Source of the DNA: Rhodocyclaceae bacterium
Lineage (GTDB): Bacteria; Pseudomonadota; Gammaproteobacteria; Burkholderiales; Rhodocyclaceae
Direction of reading: 5' to 3'
Length of the DNA: 40,647 nt
NCBI GenBank assembly: GCA_020445665.1
Contig: JAGRGD010000065.1
Coordinates: forward strand, 1 to 40,647
Shown: piece after piece, positions 22,491 to 40,647 of the stretch
Position numbering within the stretch: the stretch's first letter is position 1
How the letters are laid out: each line of letters begins with the position of its first letter
Position numbers and translations under genes: made by a program
The notes under the pieces: generated by a model
Database searches by the model: none
Told to the model about the DNA's origin: nothing
The model's input: only the letters and a program-made list of their open reading frames with translations

Positions 22491-25400
22491 CACGTAACCG
22501 CGTTGGTTCGGCTCCGCTGGATCCAGTGCGCCACCGTGTCCACCAGTTGGTCGGGGTCCACCGGCTTCGGGATGTGATCATTCATCCCCGCTTCGAGACA
22601 TTTGTCACGGTCCTCGCCGAATGCGTTGGCGGTCATGGCGAGAATCGGCACCTGGGCATAGCCTTCCAGGCGCCGGATCGCCCGTGTCGCCGCGAGTCCA
22701 TCCATGACCGGCATCTGCATGTCCATCAGGATCAGGTCGTAGACGCGGGCGCCGGCCGCATCGACAGCCTCCTGCCCGTTCTCCGCGATGTCGATGGTGG
22801 CGCCGGTATCGGACAGGAGTTCGATCGCCACCTCCTGGTTGACCCAGTTGTCCTCGACCAGGAGAAGGCGGCAATCGGCCAGCTGGCCGTCCTGCGATGC
22901 GCCGACGACTTCAGCGCCATCACAGCATGCACCGGCGGCGGGTTCTCCCGGTACGACGTGGAACGGCAGTTCGAACCAGAAGGTGCTGCCTTCGCCGGGC
23001 ACGCTGTCGAGGCCGATCTCGCCCCCCATCAGGCTCACCAGACGACGGCAGATGGCCAGCCCGAGGCCGGTTCCGCCGAACTGCCGGGTGGTGGTGGTGT
23101 CGGCCTGCGAGAAGGGCTGGAAGATCCGCTGGCGCTGGGGATCGTCGATGCCGATCCCGCTGTCGGCGACCTCGAAGCGCAAGCGCACCAGATCAGCCTG
23201 GCGCGCGGCCGCACTCAGCCGGATCGTGACCCCGCCCCGGCTGGTGAACTTGACGGCATTGCTGGCGAGGTTGATCAGCACCTGCCCGAGCCGCATCTCG
23301 TCGCCGACCAGACAGCGCGGCAGGGTCGGTTCGACCTCGGAGCTGAGGCGCAGCCCCTTGGCGTCGGCGAGGTCGCCGATCAGGCCCGTCACCTTGTCGA
23401 GCACGGCGGCCAGTTCGAAGGGGGACTGGTCGATGAGCATTTCGTCCGCCTCGATCTTCGACAGATCGAGCACGTCGTTGATGACGCTGAGCAGGTGCTG
23501 CGCCGCGACCGAGAGCTTGTCGAGCTGCTCGAGTTGCCGATCGCCGGTGAGCGAGCGGCGCAGCAGGTGGGACACGCCGATGATGGCGTTCATCGGTGTC
23601 CGGATCTCGTGGCTCATGTTGGCGAGGAAGGCACTCTTGGCCCGGTTGGCCGCCTCGGCCGCGTCGACCGCCCGCGCCAGCTCCTCGGTGCGGGTGGCGA
23701 CCAGTCCCTCCAGTTCATGGCGATACTGCTCGAGTTCGGCCTCCTCGCGTTTGCGTTCGGTGATGTCCTGGACGACGGCATGGATCAGGGGGGTTTCGTT
23801 GTCGCTGATCGAGGTCGCGACGACATCGCCGATGAAGGGCGTCCCGTCGGCCCGGCGATGGGCCCACTCGAAGCGGTGACTACCATGGACCTGCGCCAGC
23901 CGGATCATCTCACCCGCCTTCTCGTCGGACCGTTGCCCGTCGGGCTGGTATTCGGGAGAGAACGCCGCGGGGTGGGTGCCAACCAGTTCTTCCGGTCGTT
24001 TCAATCCGAACAGTCGAAGGCCTGCCGGGTTCGAGCCGATGAAGCGTCCGTCCGCGTAGAGAATGGTCGGCAGCGCCGACTCCTGGAAGAGGGAGCGGAA
24101 ACGGGCCTCACTGGTCTCGAGCGCGGCACGGGCGGCGTACTGCTCGGTCACGTCCTGAACCACCGCGTGCAGCAATGTGCGACCTTCGCGCACGACCGCA
24201 GTGAGGATCACATCGGCACGGAAGTGGCTACCGTCCGCACGCACATGCTCCCATTCAAATCGGTGACTTCCCTTGGCCTCGGCCTGCTGGACCACATTGC
24301 GCACCTTGTCGAGCGAACGTGAGCCGTCCGGCTGAAGCTCCGGCGAGAAATCGGCCGGACTGGTGCCCACGAGTTCGTCGGCCGACCCGAGGCGGAACAA
24401 CTGGAGGCCCGCCCGGTTGGCCCCGACGAACTTGCCGTCGGACACCAGCAGGGTCGGCAATGCGGAATCGCGAAACAGGGCGCGGAAGCGCGCCTCGCTT
24501 TCCTCCAGGGCCGACTGGGCGGTGACCCGCTCGGTGATGTCCTGTACGACCGCGTAGAGCACCGGGCGCCCGCCATGGGAAAACGCCGTCAGATTGACAT
24601 CGGCCGTGAAGAGCGTGCCATCGCGCCGCCGGCTCAGCCACTCGAACTGCAGGCTCCCCTTCTCCCGCGCGATCGCCTGCAGGCGAGGCGCTGCGGTGGC
24701 AGACGGCCCGTGCAGAGGCTGTTCCGGGGGTGACAGATCATCCGCGGTACACCCCAGCATCGCTTCCCGGCACTCGAAGCCAAGCAGTTCGACCGCGGCC
24801 CGATTGACATCGACGAATTCGGGGCCATCCAGCACCAGCGTGGCCAGGGGGGATTCCTCGAACAAGGTGCGGAAACGGGATTCGCTCTCTTCAAGTGCCT
24901 TGATGGCTGCAACCCGCTCGGTGATGTCCTGAATAACACCGTGCATCAGACGACGCCCTTCATGGACGATCGGCACCAGGATCACGTCCGCCGTAAACGG
25001 CGTACCGTCGGTCCGCACGCAATCCCACTCCATCCGCAGGCTGCCCTGGTCACGGGCGATTGCCTCGATCCGCTCCCGTTCTTCGGCCGATACGAGTCCA
25101 CTCGGCTGTATGGCGGGCGAGAAGTCAATCGGCCGGTACTGCTGGAGTGCCTCTCGGCTTTCCACAGCGAACAACTGCAGGGCCGCCCGGTTGGCATCCA
25201 CGAACCGGTCGCCGTCGAACAGCAGGCTGGCGAGGGGCGAGTCCTCGAACAGGGTCCGGAAGCGCGATTCGCTCTCGCGCAGCGATTCCTGGGCGACACG
25301 CCGCTCGGTGATGTCCTCGACCGTTCCGACCGCGCTGATCGCCCAGCCGGCTTCGTCGAACTGCAACTCGGCCCGCTCCCGCAGCCAGTAGGTCTGCTCC

Positions 25401-27538
25401 CCGACCACGATGCGGTGCTCGACCTCATAGGGCTCGCCCTTGTAGGCCCGCTTCCAGGCGGCGTTGATCCTCGCCATGTCCTCCGGCACAACCCGCGCAT
25501 GGAAATCGCCGAGCGTCACCCGGGCGCCGTTCTCGATGCCGAACAGGCGGTAGGTCTCCGCCGTCCATTCGAGGGCGCCGGTGCCGATGTCGAGGATCCA
25601 GCTCCCCTGTCGGGCCACCGCCTGGGCCCGATTGAAGGCGGCCTCGGACGCCCTCAGCTGCTCTTCGACCTGCTTGCGCTCGTGGATGTCCACATGCACG
25701 CCGATCATCCGCGTCGGGGCCTGCTCCGTGTCGCGCTCGATCACCAGCCCACGGGCCTGGATCCACTTCCAGTGTCCGTCGCGGTGGCGCATCCGGAAAT
25801 CCACCTCGTACTGGGGATCAATGCCGTCCAGATGGCGCTGCAGGCTGGCGGTCGTAGGGGCCAGATCATCGGGATGAATCGCGTCCTGCCAGAACGCGAA
25901 GCTGTTCTCGACCTCGTCGTCCCGGTAGCCAAGCATCCGCTTCCAGGTCGGCGAGAAGTAGCTCCGCCTGGACGGGATGTCCCAGTCCCACACGCCGAGG
26001 CCGCTGCCCTCGAGCGCGAACTTCCAGCGTAGTTCCCATTCACGCAGGTCCCGGTCGGCCTTGCGCGCCGCGGTCACGTCACTGGAGATCGTCGCGAAGC
26101 CGTCCTCCATCCAGGGCACGACCGAGATCTCGAAGGTCTTGCCGAGGGGCTCGAAGTAGGTCTCGAAGCGATGCGGCTGACCGCTGCGCACAACGGCCTC
26201 GAACGTCTCAAGGAACGGGGCAACTTCCTGCTGATAGGCCTCGCTTCCCTGGAGACCGATCACGGCGCTGCGCGGCATGCCGATGACCGTCTCGAAACTC
26301 GGGTTGACTGCGACGACGACGTAGTCTTTCGCCCGCCCGGCCTCGTCCCTGACCATGGTGTGCAGGGCCACTGCTTCGGACATGCTGTTGAAGAGGGTTT
26401 CGAAGCCCACGGCGCTTTCGCGGGCCAGCCCCTCGGCACGCTTGCGTTCGCTAATGTCGCGGATGATCGCCACGGAGACCACCTCGCCGTCGAGCTCGAC
26501 CGCCCGGCCGCTGATCTCGGCTGCGTAGGTACTGCCATCCGCGCGTCGATGCGTGGTTTCGAAACTGGCGCTGAAGTCGGACAGATCGTGGAAGCGCGAG
26601 CGGATCTCCTGCTCACTCATCGTCGCGTCCCAGTCCCAGATGTGCAGACCCGGCAGTTCATCGACGGACCGGCCCAGCATCTCGGCGAAGCGTCGGTTGC
26701 CCTCGATCAACTCGTGGTCGGCGCTCATGATCGCGACGCCGTCGCGGGAGGCATCCATCAACTCTCGCCAGCGCTGCTGGCCGCTGCGTGCCGCCGTGAT
26801 GTCGTGGGCCAGCCCCAGCACCGCGTACGGCTTGCCGGCGTCGTCGCGAAGGCCGACCTTGACGGTGTCGAAGAGCCCACGGTAGCCGTCCTCGGCGAAG
26901 CTCAGCCACTCTTCGTTGTGCAGCGGCGTCACCGAGTTCAGCGCCGCGCGGTCATTCTCCCGGAAGCAGTCGGCCAGATCGGCCGGCGCGAAGTCGTAGT
27001 CGGTACGGCCAAGGATCTCGTTGCGGGGAACCCCCATGAAGCGCTCGAAGGCCGCATTGCAGGCGAGGAAAACGCCGTTCGCGTCCTTCAGCCAGACCAT
27101 GTCGGGCAGCAAGGCCAGCAGTTTGCCGAGCGCATTGAGATCCTGCGCCTGATGCGCCGGCAGACGCTGCACGGCGTCCGGATCGAGGGGCTCGAGCAGG
27201 GCGCGGGCGCCGCGCGAGCCATTGCCATCGACGGTGCCCCGCAGCCGGTAGTCGTGCCAGGCATCGCCTTCCCGGAGGCCGATGTGCTCGTCGAAACGGC
27301 CGGTCGTTGCCAGTGCCAGGCGGAGGCGCCCCTGGTCCTGGGGGCGCAACCGGTCCAGCCAGTCGTTCAGCGTCCCCGCGTCGGCCCCGTCGATCTGCAG
27401 GCGGCCGGACGACGCCTCGTAGCGCCAGCGGCGGATACCCAGCTCGGCGAGGAGATCATCGGACGACACGGCGGGCAACGCGTGAGAAGGCAAGACTTCG
27501 CGCTCTGTGGAGGCTACGGGAAACCGATTCAACGGCAC
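22490..27538 (-). CDS. very large hybrid sensor histidine kinase with about nine PAS domains and a C-terminal receiver
   Basis: A 1682-residue cytosolic hybrid kinase; I see no clear membrane helix. After a degenerate N-terminal PAS-like part, nine PAS/PAC units fill about residues 125-1270. The last four (starts near 752, 880, 1010 and 1139) are close tandem copies with the frame SExRFRxLFxxSxLxxLL and DITER. Then a HisKA domain with SHEIRTPMNAIIG (phospho-His about 1310), an HATPase domain with NLASNAVKFT, DSGIGI and GGTGLGLAI, and one receiver with MDMQMPVMDG (phospho-Asp about 1606). Start is GTG with a weak ribosome site, so the exact N-terminus is uncertain. It is divergent from the two-receiver regulator at 27696, its likely partner. 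The stimulus is unknown. Confidence 0.93.
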   Translation of the reverse strand: MPLNRFPVASTEREVLPSHALPAVSSDDLLAELGIRRWRYEASSGRLQIDGADAGTLNDWLDRLRPQDQGRLRLALATTGRFDEHIGLREGDAWHDYRLRGTVDGNGSRGARALLEPLDPDAVQRLPAHQAQDLNALGKLLALLPDMVWLKDANGVFLACNAAFERFMGVPRNEILGRTDYDFAPADLADCFRENDRAALNSVTPLHNEEWLSFAEDGYRGLFDTVKVGLRDDAGKPYAVLGLAHDITAARSGQQRWRELMDASRDGVAIMSADHELIEGNRRFAEMLGRSVDELPGLHIWDWDATMSEQEIRSRFHDLSDFSASFETTHRRADGSTYAAEISGRAVELDGEVVSVAIIRDISERKRAEGLARESAVGFETLFNSMSEAVALHTMVRDEAGRAKDYVVVAVNPSFETVIGMPRSAVIGLQGSEAYQQEVAPFLETFEAVVRSGQPHRFETYFEPLGKTFEISVVPWMEDGFATISSDVTAARKADRDLREWELRWKFALEGSGLGVWDWDIPSRRSYFSPTWKRMLGYRDDEVENSFAFWQDAIHPDDLAPTTASLQRHLDGIDPQYEVDFRMRHRDGHWKWIQARGLVIERDTEQAPTRMIGVHVDIHERKQVEEQLRASEAAFNRAQAVARQGSWILDIGTGALEWTAETYRLFGIENGARVTLGDFHARVVPEDMARINAAWKRAYKGEPYEVEHRIVVGEQTYWLRERAELQFDEAGWAISAVGTVEDITERRVAQESLRESESRFRTLFEDSPLASLLFDGDRFVDANRAALQLFAVESREALQQYRPIDFSPAIQPSGLVSAEERERIEAIARDQGSLRMEWDCVRTDGTPFTADVILVPIVHEGRRLMHGVIQDITERVAAIKALEESESRFRTLFEESPLATLVLDGPEFVDVNRAAVELLGFECREAMLGCTADDLSPPEQPLHGPSATAAPRLQAIAREKGSLQFEWLSRRRDGTLFTADVNLTAFSHGGRPVLYAVVQDITERVTAQSALEESEARFRALFRDSALPTLLVSDGKFVGANRAGLQLFRLGSADELVGTSPADFSPELQPDGSRSLDKVRNVVQQAEAKGSHRFEWEHVRADGSHFRADVILTAVVREGRTLLHAVVQDVTEQYAARAALETSEARFRSLFQESALPTILYADGRFIGSNPAGLRLFGLKRPEELVGTHPAAFSPEYQPDGQRSDEKAGEMIRLAQVHGSHRFEWAHRRADGTPFIGDVVATSISDNETPLIHAVVQDITERKREEAELEQYRHELEGLVATRTEELARAVDAAEAANRAKSAFLANMSHEIRTPMNAIIGVSHLLRRSLTGDRQLEQLDKLSVAAQHLLSVINDVLDLSKIEADEMLIDQSPFELAAVLDKVTGLIGDLADAKGLRLSSEVEPTLPRCLVGDEMRLGQVLINLASNAVKFTSRGGVTIRLSAAARQADLVRLRFEVADSGIGIDDPQRQRIFQPFSQADTTTTRQFGGTGLGLAICRRLVSLMGGEIGLDSVPGEGSTFWFELPFHVVPGEPAAGACCDGAEVVGASQDGQLADCRLLLVEDNWVNQEVAIELLSDTGATIDIAENGQEAVDAAGARVYDLILMDMQMPVMDGLAATRAIRRLEGYAQVPILAMTANAFGEDRDKCLEAGMNDHIPKPVDPDQLVDTVAHWIQRSRTNAVT

Positions 27539-27695
27539 GCCAGCGTCGATCCTGAAGTGGAATCAGGGCTCCATGCAAGCGCACGCGTGCGGAGGGCCGG
27601 CACGTGCCGCTAAAGACCGCCGCCGAGACTCCGTTCTATTCAGGTTCATCGATCACCGTCCCTGCCTCTGGCGGATACCACCGGGAGACCTGCCC

Positions 27696-28493
27696 ATGAC
27701 GACACAGCTCAGCATTTGCGACCTCAAGGTCATCCTGGTCGAGCCGTCCCGGATGCAGGCCGCCCTCGTCACCCGGATGCTCGAGCAACAGGGACTCTCG
27801 GGCCTCGAGGCCCGGACGGAGGGGCGCGAGGCCCTCGACACCATGCGCTCGCAGCGGCCCGACCTCGTGATCAGCAGCCTCTACCTGCCGGACATGGCGG
27901 GCACCGACCTGGTGTCCGCCATGCGCGACGACCCGGCCCTGGAGCGGGTGCCCTTCATCCTGATCTCGAGCGAGACGCGGCCGCAGGTGCTCGATCCGAT
28001 TCGCCAGGCGGGGGCCTGTTCGATCCTCAATAAACCCTTCGACGACGGCCAGCTCTATCGGGCGCTGGGCAGTGCGGTCGACTACCTGTCGCCGGACGTC
28101 AGCCTGGAGGGCCTCGAGCCCGAGCGTCTGCGCGTCCTGCTGGTGGACGATTCGGGCGTCACCCGCCGCCACTATCGCCGCATGCTGGAGGACCAGGGGA
28201 TTCGCGACATCCTCGAAGCCGAGGACGGCCTCGAGGCGGTCGCGCTGCTGGCCGACACGATGGTCGATCTCGTGATCACCGATTACAACATGCCGGAGAT
28301 GGACGGACGGCAGCTGGTCGAGTACATCCGCCAGCAGAGCTGGCAGAGCACGGTGCCGGTCCTGATGGTGACCAGCGAGCACAACCAGCAACGCCTGGCC
28401 GCCGTCGAGCGCGCCGGCGTCTCCGCGATCTGCGACAAGCCCTTCGAGCAGGAATCGATCAAACGCCTGCTGGCCGAAGCCCTGGCAAACTGA
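27696..28493 (+). CDS. response regulator with a degenerate and an intact receiver domain
   Basis: A 265-residue protein made of two receiver domains and no DNA-binding or enzymatic output. Receiver 2 (about 145-265) is intact: LLVDDSG, phospho-Asp 196 in DLVITDYNMPEMDG, and CDKPF. Receiver 1 (about 10-130) has VEP in place of the acidic pair and Ser 61 where the phospho-Asp should be (PDLVISSLYLP), while keeping NKPF. It is therefore a pseudo-receiver. ATG 27696 has GGGAG upstream; a longer frame to 27507 runs into the divergent kinase gene and is not used. It shares a 157-base divergent promoter region with the hybrid kinase. It may work as a phosphate shuttle, a dimeric titrator, or a protein-interaction regulator. 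Confidence 0.9.
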   Translation: MTTQLSICDLKVILVEPSRMQAALVTRMLEQQGLSGLEARTEGREALDTMRSQRPDLVISSLYLPDMAGTDLVSAMRDDPALERVPFILISSETRPQVLDPIRQAGACSILNKPFDDGQLYRALGSAVDYLSPDVSLEGLEPERLRVLLVDDSGVTRRHYRRMLEDQGIRDILEAEDGLEAVALLADTMVDLVITDYNMPEMDGRQLVEYIRQQSWQSTVPVLMVTSEHNQQRLAAVERAGVSAICDKPFEQESIKRLLAEALAN

Positions 28494-28496
28494 TCG

Positions 28497-29495
28497 TCAC
28501 TCCAGCGCGAAGCTGTACTCGATGGCGCGGCCGACGCCGTCCACCCGCACGCCGTCGATCCGCACGCGGTAGCTGAGCCCGGTGCGCAAGCCCCCGACCT
28601 GCCAGCTCAACAGGTTCGGCAGACCCGCGCCGCTGTAATCCTCGGCGCGATTCGTGACCGCCAGATCCTGTCCGTTCGGGTCGGTCACCCGGATCGCCGC
28701 CGTTGCGAAATCCACCCGCCCGCGGTTCGCGTTGCGGTTCGCCGGATCGGCCACCACCGAGACCGACAGCACGCCCGTCGGCGGAAACAGGTCGGCCGGG
28801 TAGCTGCCCTGAGGCATTGCCACGAAGTCGGGTGCCGCAGGGCCCAGCGCACGCGCGCCGGCATCGATCAGCGCCAGCACGCCGGCCATCGTCTCGCCCG
28901 AGCTGCCCGACGGCTGCCCATCGGCGCGCCCCCACGCAACCGGGCCAAGGAAAGGATCGAGCATCCAGCGGCGGTGGCCCAGGCTCGCCACCCCATCGTC
29001 AAGCAACAGCGCCGCCAGGGCCGACGACGACGGGAAGCCGAGTGTCCCGCTGCTCGAGGAGCGCAGATAGAGGTTGCTGCGGGCCGCCTCGCCGGCCCCT
29101 GCCGCGCTGTAGCAGGTCCAGGACGCCGGCGGCTGGTGCGACAGGGCGCGGTTGGCCACCATCATCAGCGCCGCCTCGCCGGCGGCCGCCTCGCGCCCGG
29201 TGTCCCGCGCGACCGCAGCCAGACCATGACGGGCGCGCAGGGCATTGAGGGCGTCGAGGACCCGCAGGTGTTCCGCCTCGGTGAGGCTGCCCGGCCGGCA
29301 GCTGGACAGCTCGGCGGCGGCCGCATATATGCCGTCCGCCTGCGTGCCGTCGTCGCCGCCGCCCGTGGTCGGCGCCGGGGTGCCGGTATCCGGGGTGCCG
29401 GCGGCCGTCTCTCCGCCGCCCCCGCCACCCCCGCACGCGGCGGTCAGGAAAGCGACCAGCAGGGCCGGGATCACGTTGCGCAGGAAAGGGAGCAT
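28497..29495 (-). CDS. lipoprotein with CAP (SCP/PR-1-like) domain
   Basis: A 332-residue lipoprotein. The signal MLPFLRNVIPALLVAFLTAA ends in a lipobox cysteine followed by a run of Gly, then a Gly/Thr/Pro linker. The CAP/SCP domain (about 60-220) has LRVLDALNALRARHGL, SHQPPASWTCYS and the helix motif SLGHRRWMLDP. A short beta domain follows (about 225-332). ATG 29495 is used because the signal peptide starts there; the ribosome site is weak. Bacterial CAP lipoproteins are poorly understood, some being proteases or lipid binders. Its stop meets the response regulator stop with 3 bases between them. It is divergent from another poly-Gly lipoprotein. Confidence 0.85.
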   Translation of the reverse strand: MLPFLRNVIPALLVAFLTAACGGGGGGGETAAGTPDTGTPAPTTGGGDDGTQADGIYAAAAELSSCRPGSLTEAEHLRVLDALNALRARHGLAAVARDTGREAAAGEAALMMVANRALSHQPPASWTCYSAAGAGEAARSNLYLRSSSSGTLGFPSSSALAALLLDDGVASLGHRRWMLDPFLGPVAWGRADGQPSGSSGETMAGVLALIDAGARALGPAAPDFVAMPQGSYPADLFPPTGVLSVSVVADPANRNANRGRVDFATAAIRVTDPNGQDLAVTNRAEDYSGAGLPNLLSWQVGGLRTGLSYRVRIDGVRVDGVGRAIEYSFALE

Positions 29496-29629
29496 GACAA
29501 GGGCAGAGAGGAATGCGGATCGCCCGAGTATAGTCGGCGCTCCCGACGACGCGAGCCCGCGGTGTAACAAGTGCTTTCGCCCACCGGGCGGCACCTGCCG
29601 TAGGCTGCCGGGGCGCACGGAGGAATGAC

Positions 29630-30712
29630 ATGGATATCAGGAGACTCGGCGGCTGGCTGGCAGCGTCCGCGCTCGTCATCGGCCTCGCGGCATGTGGTGG
29701 TGGCGGCTCGTCGTCGGCAGACGCCGGCAGCGACACCGGAACGCCCCCGCCCGCCGCCGGTGGCAGTGGCGATCCGAACGCCGAGCTTCGCTACGGCGAC
29801 CTCACCGCGGCCTCGCTCGGGGTCGGCGGCGACCTCCACGGCGCCATGCCGTTCACCGCCGACAACGCCTGGAACCGGGACGTCTCGGCCGATCCGGTGG
29901 ATCCCGCGTCGGCGGCGATCATCGCGTCAATCGGGCTCGACCGCGGGCTCCACCCGGACTTCGGCAGCGGTCTGTGGCTCGGTGCCCCGATCGGCATCCC
30001 CTACGTCGTCGTGTCGTCCGGCCAGCCCCGCGTCGCGATCGGTTTCACCGACTACGGTGACGAGAGCGACCCGGGCCCCTACCCGATCCCTTCCGACGCC
30101 CCGATCGAGGGCCAGCCCCAGGATGGCTCCGCTTTCGGCGGCGACCGCCACGTGCTGGTGGTGGATCGGGACGCCAACCGGCTCTACGAACTCTATAACG
30201 CCCACCCCCAGGCCGATGGCAGCTGGCTCGCGAGCAGCGGCGCCATCTTCCATCTGGACGCTGCGGTGGCGCGTCCGAGCGCCATGCCGGGCTGGACCAG
30301 CGCCGATGCCGCGGGCCTGCCCATCTTCCCGGGGCTGGTGCGCTACGACGAGGCGAGCCGCGGCGAGATCCGGCACGCCCTGCGCTTCACCGTGGCCCGC
30401 ACCCGCCGGGCCTATCTCCCGCCGGCCACCCACTGGGCTTCGTCCAGCGACGACACCGCGCTGCCGCCGATGGGCATGCGGGTGCGCCTGCGGGCGGATT
30501 TCGCGATCCCTGCCGGTTTCAGCCAGGAGAGCCGCGCGATCCTGCAGGCGATGAAGACATACGGCATGTTGGTGGCAGACAATGGCAGCAACTGGTACAT
30601 CAGCGGGGCGCCCGATCCGCGCTGGAACAACGACCGGTTGAATGCCGAGCTGGGCAGCGTGCGGGGCAGCGATTTCGAAGTGGTGCGCATGCAAGGCCTG
30701 GTCACCCCCTGA
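29630..30712 (+). CDS. uncharacterised exported lipoprotein
   Basis: A 360-residue lipoprotein (signal ALVIGLAAC then GGGGSSS). The mature part has a mixed alpha/beta character and a conserved-looking FTADNAWNRDVSADPVDP motif, then GGDRHVLVVDRDANRLYELY, SGAIFHLD, HALRFTVARTRRAYLPPATH and DNGSNWYISGAPDPRWN near the C-terminus. The pattern around DNAWN and GSNWYISG recurs in environmental bacterial proteins of unknown function, and I can assign no activity. The start has GGAGGA upstream. It is 15 bases before the GH114-type lipoprotein gene, so the two are probably co-transcribed. Confidence 0.85.
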   Translation: MDIRRLGGWLAASALVIGLAACGGGGSSSADAGSDTGTPPPAAGGSGDPNAELRYGDLTAASLGVGGDLHGAMPFTADNAWNRDVSADPVDPASAAIIASIGLDRGLHPDFGSGLWLGAPIGIPYVVVSSGQPRVAIGFTDYGDESDPGPYPIPSDAPIEGQPQDGSAFGGDRHVLVVDRDANRLYELYNAHPQADGSWLASSGAIFHLDAAVARPSAMPGWTSADAAGLPIFPGLVRYDEASRGEIRHALRFTVARTRRAYLPPATHWASSSDDTALPPMGMRVRLRADFAIPAGFSQESRAILQAMKTYGMLVADNGSNWYISGAPDPRWNNDRLNAELGSVRGSDFEVVRMQGLVTP

Positions 30713-30727
30713 CCTGGAGACACGCGC

Positions 30728-31651
30728 ATGAGAAGACAATGGATGGTGTGGTGCATGGCGCTCTGCCTGGCCGCCTGTGGCGGCGGTGGTGGTGGCGGGG
30801 ATGACGATGACGGCGGCGGAGACAGCGGCATCGTCGGGGAGAGCAGCGGCGGCTCGGGGGACACGGGTGGCACCGGCGACTCCGGAGATACGGGTGGCAC
30901 CGGCGGCACCGGCGGCACCGCCACGAGCTGGTACCAGCCCGGCGTCGGCATCACCTGGCAGTGGCAACTGCTCGGCAACGTCGATACCAGCGTCGCAGCG
31001 GCACTCTACGACATCGACCTGTTCGACGTGGACGCAGCCCAGATCGCCGCGCTGCAGGCGGCGGGCCATCGCGTGATCTGCTATTTCTCGGCCGGCTCCT
31101 ACGAGGGCTGGCGGCCCGACGCCAGCCGCTTCCAGGCGGCCGAGCTGGGCAAGACGCTGGACGGCTTCGCCGATGAGCGCTGGCTCGATGTGGGCTCGGC
31201 CAATGTGGCCGCCATCATGAAGGACCGGCTCGATCTGGCAGTGCAGAAGGGCTGTGATGGCGTCGAGCCCGACAATGTGGACGGCTGGGACAACGACACC
31301 GGCTTCACGCTGAGTCGCGACACCCAGCTTGCCTTCAACCGGATGCTGGCCAGCGAGAGCCACGCGCGCGGTCTGGCCGTCGGCCTCAAGAACGCCCTGG
31401 GCCAGATCCCGGACCTGGTGGGTGACTTCGACTTTGCGGTCAACGAGCAGTGCTTCGAGTTCGACGAGTGCGACGCGCTGGCGCCTTTCATTGCCGCCGG
31501 CAAGCCCGTGCTGGGGGCCGAGTACCTGGCCTCCTACGTGAACGACGTGGCCGCCCGCGATGCCATGTGCGCGGACGCCCGCCAGCGGGGCTTCAGCACC
31601 CTGGTCCTGCCCCTCGACCTCGACAACAGCTTCCGCTTCAGCTGCCTCTGA
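30728..31651 (+). CDS. GH114-type glycosidase lipoprotein (endo-alpha-1,4-polygalactosaminidase family)
   Basis: A 307-residue lipoprotein: signal MVWCMALCLAAC, then Gly/Asp and Gly/Ser/Thr repeats to about residue 58. The GH114 domain (about 60-307) shows the TIM-barrel signatures VICYFSAGSYEGWRPD, WLDVGS, GCDGVEPDNVDGW, GLAVGLKNALGQIPDL and FDFAVNEQCFEF. The Asp/Glu residues of EPDNVD are the likely catalytic site. Family members cleave alpha-1,4-linked galactosamine polymers of the kind found in some biofilm matrices. Three cysteines (CFEFDEC and FSCL) could form disulfides. Its stop abuts the oppositely oriented regulator stop, with no base between. Confidence 0.88.
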   Translation: MRRQWMVWCMALCLAACGGGGGGGDDDDGGGDSGIVGESSGGSGDTGGTGDSGDTGGTGGTGGTATSWYQPGVGITWQWQLLGNVDTSVAAALYDIDLFDVDAAQIAALQAAGHRVICYFSAGSYEGWRPDASRFQAAELGKTLDGFADERWLDVGSANVAAIMKDRLDLAVQKGCDGVEPDNVDGWDNDTGFTLSRDTQLAFNRMLASESHARGLAVGLKNALGQIPDLVGDFDFAVNEQCFEFDECDALAPFIAAGKPVLGAEYLASYVNDVAARDAMCADARQRGFSTLVLPLDLDNSFRFSCL

Positions 31652-33028
<1,377 letters not shown>

Positions 33029-33099
33029 GGTGCCGCCTCCGCCCTGGGCCGTTGGCGCCCGATTTTGCCAGAGGCCGCGCCGCTCAATACAATCCGGCC

Positions 33100-33609
33100 A
33101 TGAAGATCCTCGGCATCGCCGGTTACTCCGGCTCTGGAAAGACCACCCTGCTGGAATCGCTGATTCCGCTGCTGGGTCTCCACGACCTCGTGGTTTCCGT
33201 CATCAAGCGCGCTCACCACGGTTTCGACGTGGACAAGCCCGGCAAGGATTCCTGGCGGCACCGTCAGGCGGGTGCCCAGGAGGTCATGCTCGCGAGCCCC
33301 GAGCGCTGGGTCCTGATGCGGGAGCTGCGGCGCGACCCGGAGGAGAACCTGCACAACCTCCTCGCCCGCCTGTCACCGTGCGACCTGGTGCTGGTCGAGG
33401 GCTTCAAGTCGACGCCGATCCCCAAGATCGAGGTGTATCGCCCGAGTCACGGCAAACCGCCGCTGTTCCCGGAGTTTCCCAGCGTCGTGGCGGTCGCGAC
33501 CGACGCCCCGTGCGACACCACACTGCCGGTGCTCGATCTCAACGACCACGCCTCGATCGCCGACTACATCGTCTCCCTGCTGCCCGGCCTGCCCGACTGC
33601 CCGCGCTGA
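33100..33609 (+). CDS. mobB: molybdopterin-guanine dinucleotide biosynthesis protein MobB
   Basis: A 169-residue P-loop protein with MKILGIAGYSGSGKTTLLES (Walker A), KRAHHGFDVDKPGKDSWRH and LVEGFKSTPIPKIEV, all hallmark MobB segments. It binds GTP and assists MobA in making the bis-MGD form of the molybdenum cofactor. ATG 33100 begins the conserved domain; a 48-base upstream extension is not supported. The stop is directly adjacent to the dusA stop on the other strand. Confidence 0.94.
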   Translation: MKILGIAGYSGSGKTTLLESLIPLLGLHDLVVSVIKRAHHGFDVDKPGKDSWRHRQAGAQEVMLASPERWVLMRELRRDPEENLHNLLARLSPCDLVLVEGFKSTPIPKIEVYRPSHGKPPLFPEFPSVVAVATDAPCDTTLPVLDLNDHASIADYIVSLLPGLPDCPR

Positions 33610-34605
33610 TCAGGCCGCGCGCGGAAGACGACGCTCCAGTTCGTCGGCCGCCTTCAGCAGCAAGCCCGGGTCGTTGCCCCGGAGCGCCACGGGGTCCGAC
33701 AGGGTCCGCCGCCAGGCCTTGGCGCCCGGCACCCCCTGGTACAGGCCGAGCACATGCCGCGTCATGTGCTTGAGAGGAACGCCCTCGTCGATCCGGGCCT
33801 GCAGAAAGGGCAGCAGCGCCTCGACAATCTCGCGCCGTGTCGGCAGCGGATGGTGGTCGCCGAACAGGCGTCGGTCCGCCTCCACCAGAAGCCATGGGTT
33901 GTGATAGGCCTCGCGCCCGATCATGACCCCGTCCACCTCGGCCAGATGGGTCTCGATCGCCGGCCAGTCGGTGATGCCGCCATTGATCAGGATCGTCAGT
34001 TCGGGGAAATCCTGCTTGAGACGGTACACATAGGGGTACTTGAGGGGCGGAATGTCCCGGTTCTCTTTTGGTGACAACCCCTTGAGGATCGCGTTGCGGG
34101 CGTGAACGGTAAAGATCCGGCAGGCCGAGCGCCGGCTCACTTCACCAACGAAGTCCCGCAGATAGTCGTAGCCCTCGACCTGGTCGATGCCGATCCGGTG
34201 CTTGACGGTGACCGGGATGTCCACCGAGTCCTGCATCGCCGAGAGGCAATCGGCCACCAGCGCTGGCTCGGCCATCAGGCAGGCGCCGAAGGCCCCGGAC
34301 TGGACGCGCTCGGAGGGACAGCCGACGTTCAGATTGACCTCGTCGTAGCCCCACTCGGCCGCCAGCCGGGTACAGCGCGCCAGGTCCGCCGCGTCGCTGC
34401 CCCCCAGTTGCAGGGCCAGCGGTTGCTCGCTCGGATCGAATCGCAGGAAGCGCTCGCGGTCACCGTGGATCAGCGCGCCTGTGGTGACCATCTCGGTGGT
34501 CAGCCAGGTGTGGCGCGTGATGAGGCGGGCGAAATAGCGGTAGAAGCGGTCGGTCCAGTCGAGCATCGGCGCCACCGCCAGGCGACGGGGCGGCAGTGCG
34601 CCCAT
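33610..34605 (-). CDS. dusA: tRNA-dihydrouridine synthase A
   Basis: A 331-residue protein with the N-terminal APMLDWTDRFYRYFARLIT typical of DusA, the FMN-binding barrel, the catalytic cysteine in NVGCPSERVQSGAFGACLM, VTVKHRIGID, TVHARNAIL, and LINGGITDW and GVMIGREAYHNPW for phosphate binding. DusA reduces uridines 20/20a of tRNA. The length fits the family. It lies 5 bases downstream of ubiK in the same direction. Confidence 0.96.
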   Translation of the reverse strand: MGALPPRRLAVAPMLDWTDRFYRYFARLITRHTWLTTEMVTTGALIHGDRERFLRFDPSEQPLALQLGGSDAADLARCTRLAAEWGYDEVNLNVGCPSERVQSGAFGACLMAEPALVADCLSAMQDSVDIPVTVKHRIGIDQVEGYDYLRDFVGEVSRRSACRIFTVHARNAILKGLSPKENRDIPPLKYPYVYRLKQDFPELTILINGGITDWPAIETHLAEVDGVMIGREAYHNPWLLVEADRRLFGDHHPLPTRREIVEALLPFLQARIDEGVPLKHMTRHVLGLYQGVPGAKAWRRTLSDPVALRGNDPGLLLKAADELERRLPRAA

Positions 34606-34610
34606 GGCAC

Positions 34611-34865
34611 TCAGCCTGCGTCGTCGGCCGATCGACCGGCAGACTCGAGCTCGGCCACCCGGCGCTCGAGCTCGGCCAGCCGCTCCTCCGCGCGCGCCAG
34701 CAGCGCGCCCTGCACCTCGAATTCCTCGCGGGTCACGAGATCCAGCCGCGAGAAGCCGCTGGCGAGCAGCGCCTTGACGTTCTTCTCCACGTCCTTCGCC
34801 GGGCTGTTGGCCGCCAGTTCGGCAAGACGGGATCCGATTTCATCGAGCAGTCGAGGGGTGGCCAT
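34611..34865 (-). CDS. ubiK: ubiquinone biosynthesis accessory factor UbiK
   Basis: An 84-residue protein of the UbiK (YqiC/BMFP) family: ATPRLLDEIGSRLAELAANS, then VTREEFEVQGALLARAEERL, a C-terminal coiled coil. UbiK helps the Ubi enzyme complex with its lipid substrates. ATG 34865 has GGAG upstream. Confidence 0.92.
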   Translation of the reverse strand: MATPRLLDEIGSRLAELAANSPAKDVEKNVKALLASGFSRLDLVTREEFEVQGALLARAEERLAELERRVAELESAGRSADDAG

Positions 34866-34922
34866 TGCGTTCTCCAGGGGCATCAGGGGCGCGATTCTAG
34901 CACGCGGGCTTCAGGCCCCGGA

Positions 34923-34939
34923 TGCACGCAAACGGTGCA
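34923..34939 (+). promoter_or_regulatory. NtrC-type binding site 1
   Basis: TGCACG-CAAAC-GGTGCA matches the NtrC consensus TGCACC-N5-GGTGCA at 11 of 12 fixed positions. It abuts site 2 and lies about 145 bases before the inferred sigma-54 start site. Confidence 0.8.
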
Positions 34940-34956
34940 TGCACCAATCTGGTGCG
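34940..34956 (+). promoter_or_regulatory. NtrC-type binding site 2
   Basis: TGCACC-AATCT-GGTGCG matches the NtrC consensus at 11 of 12 fixed positions. Directly joined to site 1, it gives a tandem enhancer with 17-base centre spacing. A third, weak site (TGCGGT-GTTGC-AGTGCA) may lie at 34971-34987. Confidence 0.82.
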
Positions 34957-35049
34957 CCATCTCGGAGCGCTGCGGTGTTGCAGTGCATGAATTGTTTCCC
35001 CTTCGTCACAAATTTTCCCATGTAGCTGTTTTTAAAGCACTAAAACAAC

Positions 35050-35064
35050 TGGCACGGATCCTGC
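35050..35064 (+). promoter_or_regulatory. sigma-54 promoter of the porin-glnK-amtB operon
   Basis: TGGCACG-GATC-CTGC matches the -24/-12 consensus TGGCACG-N4-TTGC with one change (C for T). Transcription would start near 35076, 31 bases before the porin ATG. The A/T-rich stretch between it and the NtrC sites (about 35006-35045) could bend the DNA. Confidence 0.85.
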
Positions 35065-35106
35065 CATGGGGGCTTCACTGCATCACAACTTCTCAAGGAG
35101 AAAACC

Positions 35107-35814
35107 ATGCGCACATCCCTGCTTTCGCTGTCCATGTTGGCCGCACTTCCGCTGCTCAGCACCCAGGCCCTCGCCGAGGACTCGCCGATCAGCGCCAACG
35201 TGGCCCTGGTCTCGGACTACCAGTATCGCGGTATCTCCCAGACCAACGAGAACATGGCTCTGCAGGGTGGCTTCGACTACGCCCACGAGAGCGGCTTCTA
35301 CGCCGGCACCTGGGGCTCGAATGTGTCCTGGCTGTCGGACGGCAACGCCGACGTGAGCAGCAGCCTTGAGATCGACGTCTATGGCGGCTATTCCACCGAG
35401 TTCTCGGGCGTGGGCGTCGACGTCGGCCTGCTCCAGTATCTGTATCCGGGCAACTACCCCGCCGGCTACAACAGTGCCGACACGCTCGAGGGCTACGTCG
35501 GTGTCTCCTACGGCCCGGTCTCGCTGAAGATCTCCCACTCGTTCACCGACCTGTTCGGTGTCGAGGACTCCGAAGGCTCCCAGTACTACGACCTGTCGGC
35601 CTCCCACGAGATCGCCGGCTTCACGATCGACGCCCACTTCGGCCGCCAGAAGATCGAGGACTGTGACGGCTGCTCCTACAACGACTGGAAACTTGGCGTC
35701 GGCACCAGCGTGATGGGCTTCGACGTTGGCCTGGCCTATGTCGACACCGACATCGACTCGTCGGTCGATATCGCCGACCAGCGCGTCATCCTTTCGGTCG
35801 GCAAATCCTTCTGA
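35107..35814 (+). CDS. TorF-family putative porin
   Basis: A 235-residue outer-membrane protein of the TorF/TIGR02001 group, with signal peptide LLSLSMLAALPLLSTQALAE and alternating beta-strand sequence. Signatures include NVALVSDYQYRGISQTNENM, ESGFYAGTWGSNVSWL and the C-terminal aromatic ending SVGKSF. It is expected to form a beta-barrel. The start follows an AAGGAG site. It is the first gene of a nitrogen-regulated operon with glnK and amtB, so it probably provides outer-membrane passage for a nitrogen compound. The substrate is not shown. Confidence 0.9.
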   Translation: MRTSLLSLSMLAALPLLSTQALAEDSPISANVALVSDYQYRGISQTNENMALQGGFDYAHESGFYAGTWGSNVSWLSDGNADVSSSLEIDVYGGYSTEFSGVGVDVGLLQYLYPGNYPAGYNSADTLEGYVGVSYGPVSLKISHSFTDLFGVEDSEGSQYYDLSASHEIAGFTIDAHFGRQKIEDCDGCSYNDWKLGVGTSVMGFDVGLAYVDTDIDSSVDIADQRVILSVGKSF

Positions 35815-35823
35815 GTCGCATGA

Positions 35824-36207
<384 letters not shown>

Positions 36208-36237
36208 CACTGTTTTCGCGAGTTAAAGGGGAATCCA

Positions 36238-37548
36238 ATGAAGAAACTGATTACGATGCTGCTGGCCGCGGGCGCGGTCGGCCTGTCCGGGGCGACCTGG
36301 GCGCAGGAGGCGGCAGTCGAGGTCAACAAGGGCGACGTCGCCTGGATGATGACCTCCACCCTGCTGGTGCTGTTCATGGCCCTGCCCGGCCTGGCGCTGT
36401 TCTACGGCGGCCTGGTCCGTTCCAAGAACATGCTGTCGGTGCTGATGCAGGTGATGGTGGTGTTCTCCCTGATCAGCGTGCTGTGGGCGGTGTATGGCTA
36501 CAGTCTGGCGTTCGGCGGTGAAGGGACAATCATCGCGGGCCTCGACAAGATGTTCCTCAGCGGCGTCACAATGGACTCGCTCGCCGACACCTTCACCGAC
36601 AACGTGAAGCTGCCGGAGTACCTGTTCATCGCCTTCCAGTGCACCTTCGCAGGCATCACCTGCGCGCTGATCGTCGGCTCCTTCGCCGAGCGCATCAAGT
36701 TCAGCGCCGTGCTGCTGTTCTGCGTGATCTGGTTCACGTTCTGCTACCTGCCGATCGCCCACATGGTCTGGGGCACCGGCGGCTACCTGCTCGACGCTGG
36801 CGCGCTCGACTTCGCAGGCGGCACCGTGGTGCACATCAATGCCGGCGTGGCTGGCCTGGTGGGTGCCTACATCCTCGGCCCCCGGATCGGCTACGGCAAG
36901 GAGGCCATGGCACCCCACTCGCTGACGCTGACCATGGTCGGTGCCTCGATGCTGTGGGTGGGCTGGTTCGGCTTCAACGCCGGTTCCAACCTGGAAGCCA
37001 CCTCGGGTGCCACGCTGGCCTTCATCAACACGCTGCTCGCCACCGCCGCCGCGACCCTGGGCTGGACGCTGGGCGAGGGCATGTTCAAGGGCAAGCCCTC
37101 GATGCTGGGTGCCGCATCGGGCGCCGTCGCCGGTCTGGTGGCGATCACGCCGGCCTGCGGTAGCGTCGGTCCGATGGGTGCCATCGTTCTCGGCCTGCTG
37201 GCTGGCTTTGTCTGCCTCTGGGGCGTGACCGGCCTGAAGCGGATCCTCGGCGCCGACGACTCCCTCGATGTGTTCGGCGTCCATGGCGTCGGCGGCATCC
37301 TGGGTGCCATCCTGACCGGTGTCTTCACCGCCCCGTCGCTCGGCGGCACGGGTGGCGACGACTTCTCGATCGCCAGCCAGGTCTGGATCCAGACCGAAGG
37401 CGTGCTGATCACCATCGCCTGGTCCGCCATCGTCGCCTTCATCGCCTACAAGCTGGTCGACATGATCGTCGGTCTGCGCGTCCCCGAAGACGAGGAGCGC
37501 GAAGGCCTGGACATCACGTCCCACGGCGAGACCGCTTACGTTCGCTAA
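36238..37548 (+). CDS. amtB: ammonium transporter AmtB
   Basis: A 436-residue transporter with an N-terminal signal (KLITMLLAAGAVGLSGATWA) and 11 expected membrane helices. Motifs include MTSTLLVLFMALPGLALFYG, the first pore His in PIAHMVWGTGGYL, and the second in DVFGVHGVGGILGAILTG. It conducts ammonium across the inner membrane and is gated by GlnK, encoded 30 bases upstream. Confidence 0.97.
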   Translation: MKKLITMLLAAGAVGLSGATWAQEAAVEVNKGDVAWMMTSTLLVLFMALPGLALFYGGLVRSKNMLSVLMQVMVVFSLISVLWAVYGYSLAFGGEGTIIAGLDKMFLSGVTMDSLADTFTDNVKLPEYLFIAFQCTFAGITCALIVGSFAERIKFSAVLLFCVIWFTFCYLPIAHMVWGTGGYLLDAGALDFAGGTVVHINAGVAGLVGAYILGPRIGYGKEAMAPHSLTLTMVGASMLWVGWFGFNAGSNLEATSGATLAFINTLLATAAATLGWTLGEGMFKGKPSMLGAASGAVAGLVAITPACGSVGPMGAIVLGLLAGFVCLWGVTGLKRILGADDSLDVFGVHGVGGILGAILTGVFTAPSLGGTGGDDFSIASQVWIQTEGVLITIAWSAIVAFIAYKLVDMIVGLRVPEDEEREGLDITSHGETAYVR

Positions 37549-37582
37549 GCCTCCTCCGGACCTCCGCTCAGGCGGGGTCTTG

Positions 37583-37609
37583 CGGGGCACCTTCGGGTGC
37601 CCCGTTTTT
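37583..37609 (+). terminator. rho-independent terminator after amtB
   Basis: A perfect 9-bp stem CGGGGCACC / GGTGCCCCG with a TTCG tetraloop is followed by five Ts, 34 bases past the amtB stop. Confidence 0.93.
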
Positions 37610-37652
37610 CGTTCACCCCGTCGGCGAAGCGAGCCGCCGCGCGGGGCGCACG

Positions 37653-37682
37653 AAAAAAAACCCCGCGGCGCCCACCGCGGGG
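37653..37682 (-). terminator. rho-independent terminator of purU
   Basis: On the - strand, CCCCGCGG and CCGCGGGG (37661-37668 and 37675-37682) form an 8-bp stem with a 6-base loop. It is followed by eight Ts (A run 37653-37660 on the + strand), 30 bases past the purU stop. Confidence 0.9.
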
Positions 37683-37711
37683 TTGCTGTCTTTCCGGGCC
37701 TGGGTGTCCTG

Positions 37712-38827
37712 CTAGCGGAACACCACGGTCTTGTTGCCGTGGACCAGCACCCGGTCCTCGAGGTGGTAGCGCAGGCCGCGGGCCAGCACCGACTTCTCGA
37801 TGTCCTTGCCGTAGCGGACCATGTCCTCCACCGAATCGGAGTGGTCGATGCGGTTCACGTCCTGCTCGATGATCGGCCCCTGGTCGAGGTCGGCGGTGAC
37901 GTAGTGGCAGGTCGCGCCGATCAGCTTGACGCCTTTCGCCCAGGCCTGGTGGTAGGGCCTGGCGCCGACGAAGCTCGGCAGGAAGCTGTGGTGGATGTTG
38001 ATGATCCGCCCCGGGTAGGCGCCGCACAGCTCGGGCGAAAGAATCTGCATGTAGCGCGCCAGCACCATCGTGTCGCCGCGCACCTCTTCGAAGATCCGCT
38101 GCACCTCGGTATAGGCGCGGGCCTTGGTGTCGGCGGTCACAAAATGGCAGGTGGCGCCGATGAGCTTGACGCCCTTGGTCCACGCCTGGTGGTAGGGCTT
38201 GGCGCCGACGAAGCTGGGCAGGAAGCTGTGGTGGATGTTGATGATGCGCCCCGGGTAGGCGGCGCACAGCGCGGGCGACAGGATCTGCATGTAGCGCGCC
38301 AGCACCATGGTGTCGCCGCGCACCTCCTCGAAGATGCGCTGCACCTCGGCGTAGGCGGCGGCCTTGTTGTCGGCGTTCACCGGCACGTGGTGGAAGGGGA
38401 TGCCGTGCCACTCGACGAAGCCGCGGAAGGTGTCGTGGTTGGAGATCACGCAGGGGATCTCGATGTCGAGCTCCTTCGACTGCCAGCGCGCGAGCAGGTC
38501 GTAGAGGCAGTGCTCCTGCTTGCTCACCAGCACCACCACGCGCTTCTTGACCGCGGAATCCGTGATCTTCCAGTCCATCTCCAGCTCTTCGGCGAGCGGG
38601 CGGAACTTGTCGCGGAACTCGGCGAGGTGGAAGGGCAGCGAGTCGGCGCGGATCTCGATGCGCATGAAGTAGCGCCCGACCGCCTCGCCCTCCTGCGGCG
38701 GCTCGGCGTGCAGCGAGGTCTCGAGGATCCAGCCCTTGTGCTCGGCGATGAAGCCGGAGACCTTGGCGACGATGCCGACGCGGTCGGGGCAGGAGGCGGA
38801 CAGGGTGAAGAAGCGTTGGCGGTGCAT
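37712..38827 (-). CDS. purU: formyltetrahydrofolate deformylase PurU with internal tandem duplication
   Basis: A 371-residue frame; normal PurU is about 280-290. The N-terminal ACT domain (about 1-85) starts RFFTLSASCPDRVGIVAKVS. The formyltransferase-fold region then appears with an 80-residue segment twice in a row: EVQRIFEEVRGDTMVLARYM, GRIINIHHSFLPSFVGA, and KGVKLIGATCH ending in FVTAD (copy A) or YVTAD (copy B). Only copy B leads into DLDQGPIIEQD, which carries the catalytic Asp. The N/H pair NIHH is present in both. ATG 38827 is chosen where the conserved domain begins; its ribosome site is weak. The enzyme makes formate and THF. The gene is followed by its own terminator, and thrH lies 46 bases upstream on the same strand. 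Confidence 0.85.
   Translation of the reverse strand: MHRQRFFTLSASCPDRVGIVAKVSGFIAEHKGWILETSLHAEPPQEGEAVGRYFMRIEIRADSLPFHLAEFRDKFRPLAEELEMDWKITDSAVKKRVVVLVSKQEHCLYDLLARWQSKELDIEIPCVISNHDTFRGFVEWHGIPFHHVPVNADNKAAAYAEVQRIFEEVRGDTMVLARYMQILSPALCAAYPGRIINIHHSFLPSFVGAKPYHQAWTKGVKLIGATCHFVTADTKARAYTEVQRIFEEVRGDTMVLARYMQILSPELCGAYPGRIINIHHSFLPSFVGARPYHQAWAKGVKLIGATCHYVTADLDQGPIIEQDVNRIDHSDSVEDMVRYGKDIEKSVLARGLRYHLEDRVLVHGNKTVVFR
37891..38380 (-). repeat. 240-base-period tandem duplication inside purU
   Basis: The + strand sequence from 37891 to 38140 aligns with 38131 to 38380 at an offset of exactly 240 bases, without gaps. I count about 26 mismatches in 250 positions, mostly third-codon changes, with about six amino-acid differences. 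The edges lie at V-T/N-A-D codons (GTGACCGCCGAC and GTGAACGCCGAC), a short homology that could have mediated the joining. Confidence 0.93.
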
Positions 38828-38873
38828 GGGGTGCGTGAGGTGCGAGGCGTCAGGAGTGAGGGGCGGAGCGGGG

Positions 38874-39482
38874 TCAGACGCGCGCGAATGCCTTGTCGAT
38901 CTCGGCACGCAGCGCGTCGTAGTCGCGCACCACGGGATACTGCGGAAACTCGCGCACCACGTTCTCGGGCGGATGGAACAGGATGCCGCCGTGGGCCTCG
39001 CCGAGCATCGCGGTGTCGTTGTAGGAGTCGCCCGCGGCCACGACCTTGAAGTTGAGCTCCTTGAAGCGCTTGACGGCCTCGCGCTTCTGGTCGGGCATGC
39101 GCAGGTGATAGTTCACCAGAATGCCTTCGGCGTCGGCCTCGAGGCTGTGGCAGAACAGCGTGGGCATGCCGAGCTGCTTCATCAGCGGCTTGGCGAACTC
39201 GTAGAAGGTGTCGGACAGGATCACCACCTGGTAGGTGTCGCGCAGCGCGTCGAGGAATTCGCGCGCGCCCTGCATCGGCCCCATGCTGGCGATGACGGCC
39301 TGGATGTCGGGCAGGCCGAGCTTCTTGTGCGCGAGGATGTCGAGGCGGTACTTCATCAGGGTGTCGTAGTTGGGCTCGTCGCGGGTGGTGCGGCGCAGCT
39401 CGGGGATGCCGGTACGCTCGGCGAATTCGATCCAGATTTCGGGGACGAGCACACCTTCGAGGTCGAGACAGACGATACGCAC
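38874..39482 (-). CDS. thrH: phosphoserine phosphatase / homoserine phosphotransferase ThrH
   Basis: A 202-residue HAD-family protein of ThrH type: catalytic Asp in CLDLEGVLVPEIW, then RRTTRDEPNYDTLMKYRL, LSDTFYEFAKPLM and AAGDSYNDTAML. GTG 39482 is the start, preceded by AGGAG; longer frames run into a divergent gene. It dephosphorylates phosphoserine and can transfer phosphate to homoserine in characterised relatives. The gene lies 46 bases before purU in the same direction and may share its message. Confidence 0.92.
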   Translation of the reverse strand: MRIVCLDLEGVLVPEIWIEFAERTGIPELRRTTRDEPNYDTLMKYRLDILAHKKLGLPDIQAVIASMGPMQGAREFLDALRDTYQVVILSDTFYEFAKPLMKQLGMPTLFCHSLEADAEGILVNYHLRMPDQKREAVKRFKELNFKVVAAGDSYNDTAMLGEAHGGILFHPPENVVREFPQYPVVRDYDALRAEIDKAFARV

Positions 39483-39517
39483 CGCGGACTCCTGGAGGCA
39501 GGTTGGGTAAAGCCCGG

Positions 39518-39523
39518 ATTCTA
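39518..39523 (-). promoter_or_regulatory. candidate -10 box for thrH-purU
   Basis: TAGAAT on the - strand about 35 bases before the thrH GTG. A weak -35 (TTCGAT) sits at 16-base spacing. Confidence 0.35.
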
Positions 39524-39626
39524 GCAGCCCGCCCCCGACATCGAACGCTGCCCCGGAAAACCGCCGCTCGCCGTGACCGACTCGGCTCGCTCCGCGGCGC
39601 AAGGCATGGCGAGCCGTGCATGCGCT

Positions 39627-39635
39627 TGCGATAAT
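39627..39635 (+). promoter_or_regulatory. candidate extended -10 box for the HD-GYP gene
   Basis: TGCGATAAT reads as an extended -10 (TGn plus GATAAT) about 28 bases upstream of the GTG at 39663. No clear -35 is seen, which extended -10 promoters tolerate. Confidence 0.4.
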
Positions 39636-39662
39636 GCGCGCAACGAACACCGGCCCCATAGC

Positions 39663-40647
39663 GTGATCAAGCTCATCCCCGTCGCCCGGCTGCAGCCCGG
39701 CATGTACGTCCACGACCTCCACTGCGGCTGGCTGGAGCACGACTTCGTGCGCAACCGCTTCCTGGTGGCGGATGCGCACGACGTGGCCAGAATCCGCGCG
39801 CTGGGCGTCGCCGAGGTCAGCATCGACACCGCGCGCGGCCTCGACCCGGACGCGGCGCCTGCAGCCACCACGCCGGATCGGGGAGACCCTGCCGGCCCGC
39901 CCCCGCCTGCGGTGCATACCGCCTCCAAGGTCGCCGGAACGCCGGAGCGCGCCCGCAACCTGCACCGCGAGGCGAACGAGATCGTTCGCAACCTGCTGGC
40001 CGACGTCCGCCTCGGCCGCCAGATCGAGATCGAGAAGGTCGAGCCGCTGGTTGCCCGCATCGTCGACTCGATCTTCACCAGCGCCGACGCCCTGCTGCCG
40101 CTGGCCCGCCTCAAGCAGCACGACAGCTACACCTTCCAGCACTCGGTGTCGGTGTGCGCGCTGATGACGGCCTTCGCGCGCACGCTGGGCCTGCCGCGCG
40201 AGACCATCCGCGAGATCGCCATCGGCGCCCTGCTGCACGACGTCGGCAAGGCGCGCATCCCGGACGAGATCCTCAACAAGCCGGGCAAGCTCACCGAGGC
40301 CGAGTTCGAGCGCATGAAGAGCCACGTGGTGCAAAGCAAGCTCATCCTGATGGCGCCCCCCGGGATCAGCCCGATCGCGCTGGAGGTCGCCGCCCAGCAC
40401 CACGAGCGCTTCGACGGCAGCGGCTACCCCAACCGGCTCGCCGGCGAGTCGATCAGCCTGTACGGGCGCATGGCGGCGATCGTGGATGTGTATGACGCGA
40501 TCACCTCGGAGCGCGTCTATCACAAGGGCATGCCACCCACCGAGGCGCTACGCAAGTTGCTGGAGTGGTCGTCCAAGCACTTCGAACCGCGCCTGGTGCA
40601 GGCCTTCATCCGCTCGGTGGGGATCTATCCCACGGGCGCGCTGGTGC
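39663..40647 (+). CDS. HD-GYP domain phosphodiesterase (3' end outside window)
   Basis: A protein of at least 328 residues starting at GTG (VIKLIPVARLQPGMYVHDLH), still open at the window edge. The N-terminal part (about 1-115) resembles DUF3391. The HD-GYP domain (about 150 on) has HDSYTFQHSVSVCALM, HDVGKARIPDEILNKPGKL, the defining HHERFDGSGYPNRLAGESI, and YGRMAAIVDVYDAITSERVY. Such enzymes degrade cyclic-di-GMP, affecting biofilm and motility. The metal-binding residues appear intact. Its ribosome site is weak, so an alternative start is possible. It diverges from thrH. Confidence 0.92.
   Translation, partial: MIKLIPVARLQPGMYVHDLHCGWLEHDFVRNRFLVADAHDVARIRALGVAEVSIDTARGLDPDAAPAATTPDRGDPAGPPPPAVHTASKVAGTPERARNLHREANEIVRNLLADVRLGRQIEIEKVEPLVARIVDSIFTSADALLPLARLKQHDSYTFQHSVSVCALMTAFARTLGLPRETIREIAIGALLHDVGKARIPDEILNKPGKLTEAEFERMKSHVVQSKLILMAPPGISPIALEVAAQHHERFDGSGYPNRLAGESISLYGRMAAIVDVYDAITSERVYHKGMPPTEALRKLLEWSSKHFEPRLVQAFIRSVGIYPTGALV

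Follow-up and report, generated by a model that had tools for sequence, protein, structure and literature searches.

A tandemly repeated catalytic segment in purU attributed to a contig that very probably joins two organisms

The contig analyzed here, C285, is in all likelihood a chimera of two organisms and an assembly artefact rather than the source of a new enzyme, as judged by comparing it with related genomes, and the 371-residue purU protein read from it is almost certainly not real. The window is the whole of this contig (40647 bases), one of 341 contigs in an assembly with a completeness of 93.65% and a reported contamination of 2.62%; given that number of contigs and that many of its relatives carry MAG in their titles, it is probably a metagenome assembly. 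Under the proposed course of events, a native piece would have broken within purU where a conserved segment has its upstream edge, and a Thauera piece where that segment has its downstream edge. The two tips would have been joined out of register via a word of about 12 bases, GTGACCGCCGAC, present at each of these edges, with the effect that the Thauera segment would be placed ahead of the native one, in frame. The segment would appear twice because the break points of the two pieces differ by 240 bases of the gene, and since the sides are from different lineages, the apparent divergent copies would be one stretch of 80 codons taken from each of two organisms. Three elements of this account are established, namely to which lineage each side belongs, where the joint lies, and the presence of a native-type purU start at the end of a second contig, C190.

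The repeated segment in purU

The gene purU occupies 37712-38827 on the minus strand (371 aa) and holds two copies of a catalytic segment, A and B (Table 1), each of 80 codons and in frame, arranged head to tail with no gap, as the original prediction had described. The span that it gave, 37891..38380, captured an existing repeat whose start, in register, lies 2 bases away at 37889. The array 37889-38380 scored 802 by TRF against 138 for the runner-up array in the window, so that the repeat is not due to chance. Other short tandem arrays were located by TRF at 20586-20713 and 30843-30920, with a 48-base unit in 2.7 copies and with 9- and 27-base units. The copies are equal at 215 of 240 bases (90%), and the 25 differing bases affect 22 codons, with 14 silent and 8 residue-changing, so the description of a divergence of about 10% that is mainly silent holds. 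Also in agreement with the original prediction, copy B, which comes first in the protein, keeps NIHH and lacks DLDQGPI: its ATCHFVTAD runs directly into TKARAY, and DLDQGPI is reached only after copy A. The edges do share a word, seen as GTGAACGCCGAC before copy B, GTGACCGCCGAC at the joint and GTCACCGCCGAC after copy A.

Two NCBIfam models, TIGR00655 and NF004684, describe PurU, formyltetrahydrofolate deformylase; the purU product matched the first with 459.7 bits (cut-off 285.95), in two stretches, and Formyl_trans_N of Pfam matched it in two stretches as well. The distance from segment start to stop is 218 residues here versus 138 in 111 of the 114 other loci compared (134 in two and 131 in one), which bears out the expectation of a protein some 80 residues longer than PurU. 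A form of about 370 residues among PurU homologs, for which a search had been proposed, did not emerge: the segment is present once in 114/114 of these loci and twice in none, in contrast to the two copies read in C285. Of 130 loci in all, 117 matched the segment, of which 3 were copies of this window and were left out; among the remaining 114 are the 80 best of 594 relatives from a scan and some overlapping extracts of single genes. Among 61 genomes searched, the organism's own included, 34 gave a match with an E value of at most 1e-60, and within these the own purU alone covers residues 1-371 in one piece. When the literature was searched for a PurU whose catalytic domain is duplicated, none of the matches listed contained "formyltetrahydrofolate deformylase". 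A paralogous purU was considered as the source of a second copy and rejected: at E 0.001 or better the own genome has four matches, which are purU itself, the end of C190, C322 (32%) and C19 (36%), and the last two are weak and cover part of the formyltransferase region only.

Table 1. Features of contig C285 on the two sides of the joint at 38128/38129
Feature	Position	Strand	Correspondence
Native side, with glnK, amtB, purU C-terminal part and copy A	22542..38128 (extent compared)		Order of G002:C179
Copy A, second in protein; native segment continuous with DLDQGPI and the C-terminus	37889..38128	-	92.4% to L048, 90.4% to L050
Joint, last 12 bases of Thauera side (GTGACCGCCGAC in sense)	38129..38140	-	L036 identity unbroken from 38129
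Copy B, first in protein; Thauera segment	38129..38368	-	240/240 bases equal to L036
purU N-terminal part, Thauera	38369..38827	-	459/459 bases equal to L036
thrH-like gene, Thauera	38880..39500 (limits approximate)	-	99.8% to L036
Rest of Thauera stub, to contig end	39501..40647		99.9% to L036

Lineages on the two sides of the joint

Each side matches a lineage of its own. From 38129 to 40647, the window differs from a Thauera MAG (HK-STAS-PROT-107, JACKMB010000007.1; locus L036) by 2 substitutions in 2519 bases, at 39298 and 40356. The unbroken identity ends at 38128, and when compared in steps of 240 bases it rises from 90% to 100% in the step containing 38129. L037 and L039, which are also Thauera loci, each gave a single alignment across the entire right part, at 88% and 83%, so the order of this part is found in other Thauera. 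The same-genus loci cease to match in this order at about 39500-39527. The gene at 38880..39500, which we take from its protein to be thrH, is 92-96% identical to five Thauera-titled loci (L037, L038, L039, L042 and L043) and 82-88% identical to same-genus loci L007, L008, L012 and L048. The Thauera title, these thrH identities and the gene order indicate that L036 probably lies outside the genus of the window. As the DNA at 39501-40647 is Thauera sequence, any gene call within it is foreign to this genome. The stub reaches the contig end and no return joint to native DNA was seen; for the last 200 bases of C285, one other matching place was found, at 76%, and for Thauera sequence past either border of the stub the assembly gave no match exceeding 83%, among the 40 of 499 candidates scored. 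The name HK-STAS was not found among the literature matches listed for HK-STAS or Thauera.

These comparisons bear on two readings that keep the repeat within one species. A true tandem duplication in a single purU followed by 10% divergence would give a 240-base repeat in frame; it is hardly credible when copy B is identical to Thauera throughout and copy A stands at 89.9%, when the identity to Thauera extends across thrH as far as the end of the contig, and when none of the 114 other loci compared holds the segment twice. Equally little weight can be given to the joining in assembly of two strain haplotypes of one species. Such an event would place a joint between differing copies, as is observed, and the original prediction was correct in raising an assembly joint; the partner, however, is the near-identical Thauera MAG and not a second strain, and the purU N-terminal part together with thrH is only 82-88% identical to the four same-genus loci named above.

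To the left of the joint, the window resembles its own genus in order and identity. The relatives of copy A in Table 1 are of the same-genus type, compared with 89.9% for Thauera L036, and the purU C-terminus is 90.8% identical to L036. The glnK-amtB region has no match in L036, which extends 2.5 kb past purU; in the whole Thauera genome of L036 the amtB region reaches 76%, and there purU is on C7 and amtB on C6. Between 36369 and 37568, same-genus loci are 84-95% identical per 240-base step, and L036 is without a match. The same-genus contig G002:C179 matches the window in five pieces, collinear between 22542 and 38119 and followed by the ortholog of the C190 end, and is 80% identical over 31666-37610. 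G001:C156 shows the same pattern over a shorter stretch, with one unbroken alignment to copy A (36541-38140). The window stretch 28486-31666, about 3.2 kb, has no counterpart in G002:C179 (L116), where only 39 bases separate the flanking matches; this may reflect an insertion or a deletion. The distance from amtB to purU is within about 0.4 kb in G001, G002 and G005, about 1.3 kb in G003 (G003:C277, L048) and about 9 kb in G004 (G004:C44, L118), and this variability of the purU neighborhood within the genus counts against a chimera, as do the frame kept at the joint and the low reported contamination.

The native continuation was found elsewhere in the same assembly. C190 stops at its base 27209 (base 1780 of L002) within another purU, after residue 93, and residues 1-93 of that purU start are 83% identical to the C285 purU protein. 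The gene is preceded on C190 by thrH and by what is presumably a threonine-dehydratase-like gene. In 5/5 same-genus genomes, the orthologs of the C190 end and of copy A form one gene on one contig (G001:C156, G002:C179, G003:C277, apparently L048, G004:C44, and G005:C69, apparently L050), and in L119 the two native ends lie about 167 bases apart. It is likely from these alignments that C190 is the true neighbor of the left side of C285. A novel PurU architecture formed by crossover between divergent alleles, as had been proposed, is not supported, given sides of different lineages at 38128/38129 and a native-type N-terminal part that ends another contig.

The joint and its origin

At the place aligned to the joint, same-genus loci read GTGACCCGCGAC (L117, L119), GTGAGCCGGGAC (L116) or GTGACGGCCGAC (L048), and the intact Thauera gene reads GTGACCGCCGAC followed by CTCGACCAGGGC. 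A like word would thus be expected there on the native side; relatives suggest what its letters may be, that stretch of the native gene being absent from C190. Window 37501-38140 (minus strand) and L036 have no exact stretch in common that exceeds 29 bases, and the one of this length falls within the segment. Assembly k-mers are usually longer than 12 bases. With a word and a longest shared stretch of these lengths, a plain k-mer join does not explain the contig, which counts against an assembly chimera, and a gap-closing step or a chimeric molecule has to be assumed. A join via a long shared k-mer was rejected, as the 29-base stretch inside the segment would give an in-register chimera without duplication. 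For SPAdes, overlaps of about 10 bases are enough to link the tips of contigs; in a literature search on gap closing by assemblers "gap closer" was absent among the matches listed.

The same word might have served in a living cell. A real and recent transfer, in which illegitimate recombination at the word of about 12 bases linked Thauera DNA to purU, would yield a cell with a hybrid, two-segment PurU of 371 residues. The short homology at the joint and the kept frame suit such an event, and "homology-facilitated illegitimate recombination" occurs as a term in print among the literature matches listed. Against it, native-type thrH and the purU start are still in the assembly and stop at a contig end inside purU, the stub reaches the end of C285 with no second joint to native DNA seen, and the event would have to be very recent to account for the near-identity to the Thauera MAG. 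A cellular event is therefore very unlikely, although not as improbable as the two readings weighed above, and we infer that the join arose either in software, from two overlapping contig tips, or in a chimeric library molecule.

Comparison with known systems

If C285 is a chimera, it illustrates that a mis-joined contig can mimic a domain duplication whose divergence looks plausible and is mainly silent. Telltale signs are a side that stays near-identical to another lineage as far as the contig end, and a native-type half located at the end of another contig. The last 2.5 kb of C285 would be unfit for use as the sequence of this organism.

Passages of the GUNC paper describe how fragments of several sources are misassembled into chimeric contigs (PMC8201837), although in the same passages misassembly is relatively rare compared with mis-binning, which counts against a chimera here. 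In a mock community, as excerpted from its report, chimeric pieces ran to the contig end (PMC8172020), as does the Thauera stub. C285 is like the inter-species chimeric contigs of these excerpts (PMC8201837, PMC8172020) in having two genomes, a foreign part at the contig end and homologous DNA at the joint. As a difference, its joint is 240 bases out of register and in frame, and so resembles a domain duplication. With respect to PurU (TIGR00655, NF004684), both source genes look like ordinary purU, and relatives carry a single catalytic segment, which leaves them some 80 residues short of the product read from C285.
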